Positions 14,828-17,942 of a stretch of 64,000 bases of DNA are shown piece after piece. Numbering within the stretch: the stretch's first letter is position 1; each line of letters begins with the position of its first letter. Under the pieces are notes generated by a model that had not been told where the DNA came from, searched no databases, and worked only from the letters and a program-made list of their open reading frames with translations. The position numbers and the translations under genes are program-made. Source of the stretch: an uncultured Bacteroidia bacterium (GTDB taxonomy: Bacteria > Bacteroidota > Bacteroidia > Bacteroidales > ML635J-15). Where the stretch lies: contig CADCCZ010000006.1 in the NCBI GenBank assembly GCA_902800045.1, positions 1 through 64,000 on the forward strand. Reading direction: 5' to 3'.

Positions 14828-14947
14828 TCAGAATGTAGTGTACAGACAAGATATGTCGCCATCGGTTCGCAACATGAACATAAGCAGCACCAACGCAAAG
14901 ACGGCAATCACAACCGACACTTTACCTATTTTCCTTTTCCACGACAT
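14828..14947 (-). CDS. DltX-like single-pass microprotein (39 residues)
   Basis: A 39-residue protein starting MSWKRKIGKVSV, with a basic N-terminus, one membrane helix (about 10-25), a short outside segment RTDGDISC and the C-terminus LYTTF. This layout mirrors DltX of the D-alanine-teichoic acid pathway, which as I recall ends in a Tyr-x-x-Phe carboxy-terminal motif whose Tyr acts as acyl carrier between MBOAT DltB and SGNH DltD. Its start overlaps the SGNH gene by 26 bases and it is the last gene of that operon. The frame is too short for default gene callers. Function is inferred from context and motif. Confidence 0.65.
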   Translation of the reverse strand: MSWKRKIGKVSVVIAVFALVLLMFMLRTDGDISCLYTTF

Positions 14948-16028
14948 AATCCTTGATTTTTTGATAAATAAGATATGCTCCATAGCTGGAATGATGCTGC
15001 CAGTCGCGAAATGCGCCAGCTGTAGATGAAATGTCTGTAGCATCTATATAGTTGGCGTTTTCGGTCTCAAGAAGGTTTGTTATACTGTCACAAATCGATT
15101 GCATTTCCGGAACTTCTGTCGGATGTGCCTTGCCAAATGCAATACTGTTGTATGGTCCGACTACGAATGTAATGTCAACATTGTTTTCTCGGCAAACCTG
15201 AATCATGGCATGCAGTTCATCGTAGCGGTAAGTTGCCTCGGGATGTGCATCGAGCGAATACGAGTTTATGTCAAACGATGCATCTACATTAAGGTCATAG
15301 TTATGTGTACTGCTGTCGGGCGGCTCATAGGTGGAAGGCATTGTCAATTCGTGTTGCGGTTTAATCCAAGCAAGCGTATTTTCAAATTTTGCAGTATCAA
15401 TATTGAATATCAAATCCTGATAGTATTTGCGCCTTGCCCTGTCGATGTAATATGAAAAAAAGTCCGATATCACATCGTCCAGTCGCGTATTGCGCAAATT
15501 GGCTTTTAGAATTTCATTCACGGCTTTGTTTTCTGGTTTGTTTGCCTTGTAATAGTTCGCAAATGAAGTGTACCTGAAAAAATAGTCGGCATTGCTACGC
15601 GCCAATTTGTTGCACCAGTATGCAGGATTTACGAAATAAATAATCTTCAGTCCTCCGATGTTTTTGTTGCTTTGTATCAACGGAAAATATGTGCAAGCGG
15701 TTCTTCCTGCCCCAGCAATTAGAGAAAAACGACATTGGAGTGTTGTGTCGGCATTAAGGAAATCGTAATAATTCTCACCGTTCATATAGTCGCTCTCCGA
15801 TGTTCCAAGGACAAGGTATCCGTTGTTTGCCTTGATGCTTTGTACAAGCAAGTCGGTATAAAGCGTATTGTTGTCGCGTAGTTCCTGATGGCGGATAGTG
15901 TAAAGCTGCCTGTCGGTTGCCGAATAGCGGAATGAGGGAATGCACAGCGATGCAAGCATCCAGAACGCCACCGCCACCAAGGCGACAACTCCAACAAATG
16001 CCATATATTTCATCCGATACATCTTCAT
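14922..16028 (-). CDS. DltD/AlgJ-like SGNH-fold membrane-anchored acyltransferase
   Basis: A 368-residue protein with one N-terminal membrane helix (about 8-30) and an extracytoplasmic domain. The SGNH nucleophile motif is LVLGTSESD with Ser77. The C-terminal RDWQHHSSYGAYL supplies Asp342 and His345/346, the block D/H pair of DltD. Length and topology fit DltD-like transferases that move an acyl group onto a cell-surface polymer. It overlaps the MBOAT stop by one base. The polymer and acyl group are unknown; a Gram-negative Bacteroidota would not have teichoic acid, so the target is probably a surface glycan or lipid. Confidence 0.85.
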   Translation of the reverse strand: MKMYRMKYMAFVGVVALVAVAFWMLASLCIPSFRYSATDRQLYTIRHQELRDNNTLYTDLLVQSIKANNGYLVLGTSESDYMNGENYYDFLNADTTLQCRFSLIAGAGRTACTYFPLIQSNKNIGGLKIIYFVNPAYWCNKLARSNADYFFRYTSFANYYKANKPENKAVNEILKANLRNTRLDDVISDFFSYYIDRARRKYYQDLIFNIDTAKFENTLAWIKPQHELTMPSTYEPPDSSTHNYDLNVDASFDINSYSLDAHPEATYRYDELHAMIQVCRENNVDITFVVGPYNSIAFGKAHPTEVPEMQSICDSITNLLETENANYIDATDISSTAGAFRDWQHHSSYGAYLIYQKIKDYVVEKENR

Positions 16029-17224
16029 CAGAAAAGCAAATTAAACATTTCTACTAGTTGTTCGACAGGATAATTGAAGAAAATCCAGCCGACCGTCACA
16101 AAAACGAATGTAACAGCAACTCCCATGATTTTACTCAACGAACCATTGCTTTTGCCAACATTCTTATTTGTTGCAACCTTATATATCGACAAGCCGATTC
16201 CGTGCCATAGTCCCCAAAAGACAAAATTCAAGGTGCTGCCATGCCAAAGCCCGCACACGAAAAAAGTTACCAAATACGCAATAACCGACACCAGCATCCT
16301 GTACTTTACAATCGGAGTGCGGTTTACCAATGCTATTACGGGCTTGAAAACATACATTTTCAGGAATGAGGAGAAAGTCATGTGCCACCTTTTCCAGAAT
16401 TCGGCAATATTTGACGAAAGATACGGCAGCCTGAAATTTTCGGGAGTACGAATTCCAAGCATATACGCGGTGCCTATTGCCACATCGCAGTAGCCCGAAA
16501 AATCGATGTAGATGTAAATTGAATACAGCAAAGCTGCAAGACAGACAGCCGACCACGCACCCATATATGGTAGCAAGGCGTTATAGTCAACAGCATACTC
16601 CTTTATCAAAGGCACAATGAGCAAAAGCTTTACTGCCCCGACAAAAATCCGTCCAACGCCTGCCAGAAGCATTCTCAGATTGAACCTCAAATGTGTTTTA
16701 TTGACCCAATAGTGGAAATTATTGAATGTGTCGATAGGTCCGGCAGGGAAAGTAGGGAAGAAAAACAGATAGTTCACATACGACAACACGTTTATACTGC
16801 GGATATTCTGCCTATAACATTCCACAAGCCAGTGAATCATACGGAAGAAAATGTACGACAAGCCAAGTTTTTCGACCGAGAAGAAATGTTTCTGCATGAA
16901 AGCATCCCACCACTCGCCAAACCACGACTGCACAAGCGGATAGTTGCGTACAGAAAAAATTGCAATCAGCAAAGTCAGCATTAGCGCCAGCAACCACTTG
17001 AACCTGCGTTTCCGCAGTATTATTCCTGCACCGTACATGATGAGTGATACCATAAATAATATGAATACCGACCTTGGAGATACGATTTTTGTGAGAATGA
17101 GAGCGTTGCCAAGCAGAATAAGAATATTGTTCAGCCAATTTTTCTTGAATATGAACTTGCATGCCGAAAAAATCAGCACGAATAGAAATATATCAAAAAA
17201 TAGCGTATAGTCGCTGAACAACAT
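16028..17224 (-). CDS. MBOAT-family membrane O-acyltransferase (DltB/AlgI-like)
   Basis: A 398-residue polytopic protein with about ten membrane helices. Family hallmarks are FFPTFPAGPIDTF (about 155-168), DFSGYCDVAIG (241-251), AEFWKRWHMTFSSFLK (His281) and FFVCGLWHGS with the catalytic His328. It should pass an acyl group from a cytoplasmic donor through the membrane to the SGNH partner. It is followed by the SGNH gene with overlapping TGATG and preceded at 5 bases by the HEPN gene, so all five genes from 17942 to 14828 read as one transcription unit. Confidence 0.92.
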   Translation of the reverse strand: MLFSDYTLFFDIFLFVLIFSACKFIFKKNWLNNILILLGNALILTKIVSPRSVFILFMVSLIMYGAGIILRKRRFKWLLALMLTLLIAIFSVRNYPLVQSWFGEWWDAFMQKHFFSVEKLGLSYIFFRMIHWLVECYRQNIRSINVLSYVNYLFFFPTFPAGPIDTFNNFHYWVNKTHLRFNLRMLLAGVGRIFVGAVKLLLIVPLIKEYAVDYNALLPYMGAWSAVCLAALLYSIYIYIDFSGYCDVAIGTAYMLGIRTPENFRLPYLSSNIAEFWKRWHMTFSSFLKMYVFKPVIALVNRTPIVKYRMLVSVIAYLVTFFVCGLWHGSTLNFVFWGLWHGIGLSIYKVATNKNVGKSNGSLSKIMGVAVTFVFVTVGWIFFNYPVEQLVEMFNLLF

Positions 17225-17229
17225 CTGAT

Positions 17230-17628
17230 TTAGTTTTCTATATATTCCTCAATTTTCTCAATCATCAGTCGCGTAGGTTCAATCATCGGAGCGATTTCCT
17301 TTTCTTCTGCATTATACGCACAGTTATAGTCCGACTTCTCTCGTAATCCCTGAAGACGCGAATAGTGTTTGCCTTCTTCAATAGAAAAAATTCCTGTTGT
17401 TACATAATGCATTCCGAATGCGCCCACCGCGCCACGATGAGTCGAAACATTGTAGCCGTCACGAATAAGCATTGCAGAAACAGCATGGAACAAAGAATAG
17501 TAAAGCCTGTTTGCCACATTGTCCCAATAACCAGCCTTCGATAACAGCTCTATCTGAGCGAAGTTCTTATGCGCTTTTTCAATTTGCAAACGCACTGTCG
17601 TTCTTCGTTCTTCATCAGTTAAACTCAT
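17230..17628 (-). CDS. HEPN-domain protein (toxin-like)
   Basis: A 132-residue four-helix HEPN protein (PF05168-like). It has AGYWDNVANRLYYSLFHAVSAML (about 32-54) and GLREKSDYNCAYN (about 92-104), the region where HEPN ribonucleases usually carry R-x4-6-H. Here no His follows the Arg at that spacing, so the canonical RNase motif is not present. It is paired with the MNT gene upstream (four-base overlap), the standard HEPN/MNT toxin-antitoxin layout. Activity is uncertain. Confidence 0.85.
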   Translation of the reverse strand: MSLTDEERRTTVRLQIEKAHKNFAQIELLSKAGYWDNVANRLYYSLFHAVSAMLIRDGYNVSTHRGAVGAFGMHYVTTGIFSIEEGKHYSRLQGLREKSDYNCAYNAEEKEIAPMIEPTRLMIEKIEEYIEN

Positions 17629-17942
17629 ACCAATACGATTTTGTCTTGTTCAACATTTTTGTAGAATGGCAGAAATGAAATAGAATCCCATTCCTTTTTT
17701 GTGTACATCTGCGGACTGATAAGCTCACCTATATTCCATCCGAGCATTACAAAAGGGAAAGACACGTCATCGTAATCTTTATCTGAAAGCTCTGGTTTGT
17801 CAAGCAAAATAAGCAAGTCCCAATCGCTGTCAGCATTATAGTCGCCCCTTGCCCTTGAACCATACAAAATCAATGAACTATGTGGTGGTAAAGCTTTCAT
17901 TGCCACTTGCTTTATATTTTCGATAACTTTTGACCTTTCCAT
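17625..17942 (-). CDS. MNT-type minimal nucleotidyltransferase (antitoxin-like)
   Basis: A 105-residue protein with the pol-beta nucleotidyltransferase motif LYGSRARGDYNADSDWDLLILLD (G-S-x10-D-x-D, about 27-49). In characterised HEPN/MNT modules the MNT protein AMPylates and silences the HEPN partner (family knowledge). It is the first gene of the minus-strand operon that also holds MBOAT, SGNH and the microprotein. It overlaps the HEPN start by four bases. Confidence 0.88.
   Translation of the reverse strand: MERSKVIENIKQVAMKALPPHSSLILYGSRARGDYNADSDWDLLILLDKPELSDKDYDDVSFPFVMLGWNIGELISPQMYTKKEWDSISFLPFYKNVEQDKIVLV

Follow-up and report, generated by a model that had tools for sequence, protein, structure and literature searches.

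In the Dlt pathway of extracytoplasmic acylation, DltA activates D-alanine, DltC carries it and the trio of DltB, DltX and DltD loads an envelope polymer. An acyl-Tyr relay has been established experimentally for both DltX and PatA (PMC12148441), the latter acetylating a Tyr within the FxYxxF motif at its C-terminus (Anderson et al. 2025, PMC12148441). According to the same work, the MBOAT-SGNH pathways other than Dlt have no microprotein of the DltX type, the motif being part of the MBOAT. For DltB, funnel residues have been described that line the proposed docking pocket of DltX, and a regulatory role has been proposed for DltX itself (PMC11035591). Here we describe, from a 64,000-nucleotide stretch of Bacteroidota DNA (the window), a cassette that very probably encodes a three-component cell-envelope O-acyltransferase in which the acyl-Tyr shuttle, a part that MBOATs normally carry as their C-terminal tail, is a protein of its own, 39 aa long.

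The cassette belongs to a rumen-type Bacteroidales bacterium and comprises genes for an MBOAT, an SGNH protein and the microprotein, in three overlapping frames on the minus strand (Table 1). All of the features named in the original prediction were found, namely His328 of the MBOAT within CGLWHGS, the GTSESD and RDWQHHS motifs of the SGNH protein, and the 39-residue frame ending LYTTF. The MBOAT and SGNH genes have a single base in common, and the 26-nt overlap between the start of the microprotein gene and the end of the SGNH gene probably reflects translational coupling. Among the homologous loci described below, no conserved gene neighbour hinting at the donor or the polymer recurred beyond close relatives of the cassette. 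Upstream of the MBOAT gene in the window, on the same strand (17230-17942), lie two small genes that by eye resemble a HEPN/nucleotidyltransferase (MNT) pair.

Table 1. Coordinates of the cassette and of its predicted functional elements in the window.
Feature	Position	Strand	Basis
MBOAT / DltB-like acyltransferase, 398 aa	16028-17224	minus	PF03062, TIGR04091, DltB PDB matches
SGNH / DltD-like protein, 368 aa, N-terminal TM anchor	14922-16028	minus	PF04914 E=3.3e-8, fold
39-aa single-pass microprotein, DltX-like	14828-14947	minus	sequence; 25/25 loci; selection
C-terminal CLYTTF hexapeptide, in register with the acyl-shuttle motif FxYxxF	14831-14848	minus	Tyr 24/24, Phe 23/24
Tyr36 codon of the microprotein	14840-14842	minus	
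Predicted TM segment of the microprotein, residues 10-26	14870-14920	minus	sequence, hydropathy
Overlap of microprotein start and SGNH end, 26 nt	14922-14947	minus	
Catalytic His328 codon of the MBOAT	16241-16243	minus	

The microprotein, MSWKRKIGKVSVVIAVFALVLLMFMLRTDGDISCLYTTF, has a basic N-terminus, one TM helix and a tail, DISCLYTTF, that runs to the stop codon. As the N-terminus is basic and the single helix hydrophobic, the positive-inside rule predicts an N-in/C-out orientation, which would place the tail outside the inner membrane. A pattern scan of GTDB genomes for relatives of the SGNH protein yielded 25 loci in named Bacteroidota genomes, mostly MAGs of rumen Bacteroidales, with more distant loci in Flavobacteriales, in other Bacteroidales and in a MAG labelled Chitinophaga. 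Conservation of the small frame, which the original prediction had made a test of its reality, was seen at every one of these loci, with the frame in the same position and its ATG at -25 relative to the SGNH end in the rumen clade and at -19 or -16 in the distant relatives. The encoded proteins are 37-40 aa long. Met1, Ile32 and Tyr36 are invariant in the 24 that could be aligned and Asp31 and Phe39 nearly so, and the anticipated Tyr-x-x-Phe therefore stands at the stop in all but one of them, the exception (L058, 4989-5108) keeping the Tyr and ending in CRYTSC. Distant members end in DIEYIYANF, DISYLYANF, DIPYLYAGF or DIPYIYLEF, from which it follows that the CLYTTF of the window is this hexapeptide with Cys as its first residue; this position is Cys in the rumen clade and Tyr in the distant members (YIYANF, YLYANF), and not Phe.

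The frame is also under the purifying selection that was expected of a real gene, and this selection is strong. Outside the overlap, pN/pS is 0.21 within the genus, and a second clade gives 0.41; over the last ten codons the values fall to 0.025 and 0.115, respectively, and the changes lie mostly at third codon positions. Within the genus, nucleotide identity averages 0.90 over the final 30 nt of the gene and 0.42 over the 30 nt that follow, and congeneric microproteins share 77-95% identity where the SGNH proteins share 66-98%. A reading of the small frame as a frameshifted extension of the SGNH protein, with no translation of its own, we regard as scarcely credible. One relative (L056) does have the two frames joined, but its MBOAT frame is broken as well, while the ATG and frame of the microprotein are intact; with damage in the two upstream genes and the microprotein start preserved, assembly error is the probable cause, and the joined frame was rejected as a natural fusion. 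Moreover, the ATG and the basic N-terminus are kept across the relatives, and a fusion protein would run the helix from the periplasmic side and leave the motif inside the cell. A distant relative in the same genus (L025, genome G012) has broken MBOAT and SGNH frames beside an intact microprotein, through either decay or assembly error.

Both partner proteins are closest in fold to the corresponding enzymes of the Dlt pathway. The MBOAT passes the PF03062 threshold (89.3 bits, cut-off 27) with its catalytic His in place, its only relative in the PDB by sequence is DltB, and DltB is also its best fold match (TM 0.70). His328 aligns with the active-site His336 of DltB and is present in 22/22 family members, and at every comparable position of the aromatic funnel the residue is identical or exchanged for another aromatic, with DltB His289 corresponding to His281. 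The SGNH protein matches the DltD family PF04914 over its C-terminal part only (33.7 bits, cut-off 22.7). Its profile found no match in the PDB by sequence, and it was the fold search, with an AlphaFold2 model of pLDDT 89.8, that gave matches: all 12 PDB entries below E=0.001 are DltD, aligned over the full length. The catalytic residues, Ser77 in GTSESD and Asp342 and His345 in RDWQHHS, are invariant in 23 sequences. The subfamily is rare: in a phylum-wide sample of 346 genomes it occurred in one, that of the window.

This kinship in fold raises the question of whether the cassette is a true Dlt pathway, in which D-alanine would be activated and carried by DltA and DltC. We consider this very unlikely. 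The best DltA candidate in the genome reaches 74.5 bits against a cut-off of 559.85 and the best DltC candidate 14.9 bits against 52.35, and with neither protein above its cut-off the cassette is not a Dlt pathway; nor does the cassette itself contain a carrier or a ligase. The equivalog scores are likewise far under their cut-offs, at 198.1 bits for the MBOAT against DltB (TIGR04091, cut-off 375) and 28 bits for the SGNH protein against DltD (cut-off 150). On the TIGR04091 model, relatives in the window family score 205-215 bits and MBOATs with a fused motif 146-172 bits. Lys312, through which DltB contacts DltC, is replaced by Pro304, although DltB Arg317 is kept. On the other side, one relative (L061, 1998-4732) has an adenylation plus carrier-domain protein of 600 aa located 370 bp downstream, with an LpxL-like acyltransferase, after the microprotein gene. 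The lack of DltA and DltC above cut-off in the genome, together with that of any ligase or carrier in the cassette, makes an acyl-CoA, most simply acetyl-CoA, the likely donor, which we propose with moderate confidence; the adenylation and carrier-domain protein of the one relative suggests that other donors may be used in places.

The microprotein itself could not be tied to DltX by profile methods. It has no match to the Pfam DltX family (PF12459, gathering score 25 bits), and the same model run over ten genomes gave nothing above noise. Against 24 relatives it returned three weak matches (best 15.0 bits, E=0.017), two of which, aligned individually, were in register to the end of the profile. 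In the absence of a match above noise we do not claim homology, and at the level of sequence the microprotein resembles DltX in motif, topology and partners rather than by established descent. A search of the PDB with the microprotein profile gave no match. In the MBOAT tree the sister relation to DltB is not resolved (support 79/37, long branches), and the split state may reflect either common descent or repeated splitting.

The central result is a complementary distribution of the motif between MBOAT tails and microproteins. The window MBOAT ends in VEMFNLLF and has no FxYxxF tail, and the C-terminal motif is missing from all 22 members of its family, counting the window MBOAT. We searched about 300 Bacteroidota genomes with an MBOAT profile and read the C-termini of the matches; of 64 complete MBOATs, 63 end in Y-x-x-F, mostly as FIYFQF. 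Past the last WHG the fused MBOATs extend for 145-176 aa and those of the window family for about 60 aa, save one (L064) with a different, unrelated tail. Two other MBOATs in the window's own genome are of the fused kind, ending FIYFRF and FIYFQF. The single exception in the survey (L067, genome G283) is a 372-aa MBOAT of another family; after its gene come an SGNH gene and an overlapping 58-aa frame that ends NPFFYSDF. The same arrangement recurs in two more genomes, with microproteins ending NPFFYADF and NPFFYAKF, so that this second split system (L067/L096 in G283, L097 in G483, L098 in G467) combines MBOATs of 372-384 aa with an SGNH protein and overlapping microproteins of 51-58 aa.

Among plasmid-borne MBOATs from Pseudomonadota, Deinococcota, Bacillota and Bacteroidota, ten that were read end in the motif. 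On the Leptolinea plasmid AP024711.1 (Chloroflexota; L110, 2271-3870), an annotated 47-aa protein ending LWIYQGF lies directly upstream of a tail-less MBOAT of 483 aa, near which no SGNH frame was recognised. The dlt operon of Niallia taxi, read as a positive control, has a tail-less DltB of 385 aa and a DltX ending YIYNDF. In every complete case read, either the MBOAT itself or a microprotein encoded beside it thus carries the motif. A profile-profile comparison of the microprotein with the MBOAT tails aligned the motif end to end, weakly (probability 17%) but above all 20 column shuffles. Plasmid pTM1 of Tistrella mobilis (L116, 804-956) encodes a DUF5989-family protein of 50 aa with one TM segment and the ending SPFLYAVF, near GDSL and fused MBOAT genes, and DUF5989 may be another acyl shuttle.

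The gene order, conservation, selection, catalytic residues, folds and motif distribution are observed here; taken with the experiments on DltX and PatA, from which we infer the acyl-Tyr chemistry, they suggest the following mechanism with a proposed donor and acceptor. The DltB-like MBOAT would bind, via its core channel, an activated acyl donor of the cytoplasm, for which acetyl-CoA is the most likely candidate, and His328 would then acylate Tyr36 of the microprotein, the tail of which would sit in the outer funnel of the MBOAT. The acyl-Tyr tail would then swing to the SGNH protein, where the acyl group would be taken up on Ser77 and finally used to esterify a hydroxyl of an extracytoplasmic polymer, e.g. 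peptidoglycan, LPS/capsule or another glycan. Alternatively, the microprotein could be a subunit that helps the MBOAT-SGNH complex to assemble or keeps it stable, and its Tyr could make contacts instead of carrying acyl groups. That the TM helix makes up most of the microprotein would suit such a role, as would the regulatory function put forward for DltX (PMC11035591). However, constraint is strongest on the extracytoplasmic tail and not on the helix (pN/pS 0.025 versus 0.32), PatA is acylated on this same motif, and the microprotein is found where the MBOAT is without the motif, and we therefore judge a purely structural role to be unlikely. The comparison, from the conserved frame and Tyr to the selection on the gene and the motif-less MBOAT, instead favours the microprotein as a putative acyl shuttle, in keeping with the original prediction of a DltX-like relay in Bacteroidota.

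The prediction of a free-standing acyl-Tyr shuttle in an MBOAT-SGNH system that is Gram-negative and not Dlt is therefore well supported by comparison, if sequence-based. In contrast to the published model of non-Dlt pathways without a microprotein (PMC12148441), the cassettes would be naturally split Gram-negative systems, with the shuttle as a free protein (39 aa in the window), and they provide a ready system for tests of the acyl-Tyr relay in trans. They also suggest a rule for finding overlooked small genes: where an MBOAT has no C-terminal motif, a small frame ending Y-x-x-F should be sought nearby. More broadly, we lean towards the view that detached acyl-Tyr shuttle microproteins form a recurrent and largely unannotated class, with the shuttle having separated from the MBOAT, or having stayed separate, on several occasions (the window family, the G283 family, the Chloroflexota plasmid, the Firmicutes Dlt system and perhaps DUF5989), in pathways free of DltA and DltC that probably move acyl-CoA-derived groups to other envelope polymers.

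Among known systems the closest parallel is DltX of the dltXABCD operon (PF12459, Bacillota), which like the window microprotein is short and single-pass, with a basic N-terminus and Tyr-x-x-Phe at the stop, and which likewise partners a tail-less DltB-type MBOAT and a DltD-type SGNH protein. DltX differs in being encoded first in its operon, whereas the window gene is last and overlaps the SGNH gene, with no DltA or DltC; it is also longer, at about 50 aa against 37-40 aa, and motif position 1, Phe in FxYxxF, is Cys or Tyr in the window microprotein and its relatives. The peptidoglycan O-acetyltransferase PatA/PatB and the AlgI/WssH-type pairs share the combination of MBOAT and SGNH protein, the hexapeptide motif and a presumed acyl-CoA donor (PMC12148441), but in these systems two extra helices join the motif to the C-terminus of the MBOAT, while that of the window is a separate gene product. 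The fused MBOATs of Bacteroidota have the MBOAT family and a motif at the stop (FIYFQF/FIYFRF) in common with the cassette and differ in their longer tail past WHG. The second split system matches the cassette in its short MBOAT, its SGNH protein and its overlapping microprotein ending FFYSDF, FFYADF or FFYAKF; unlike the cassette, it has an SGNH protein without a PF04914 match, a microprotein without a clear sequence match to that of the window, and an MBOAT that by BLAST is closer to the fused set.
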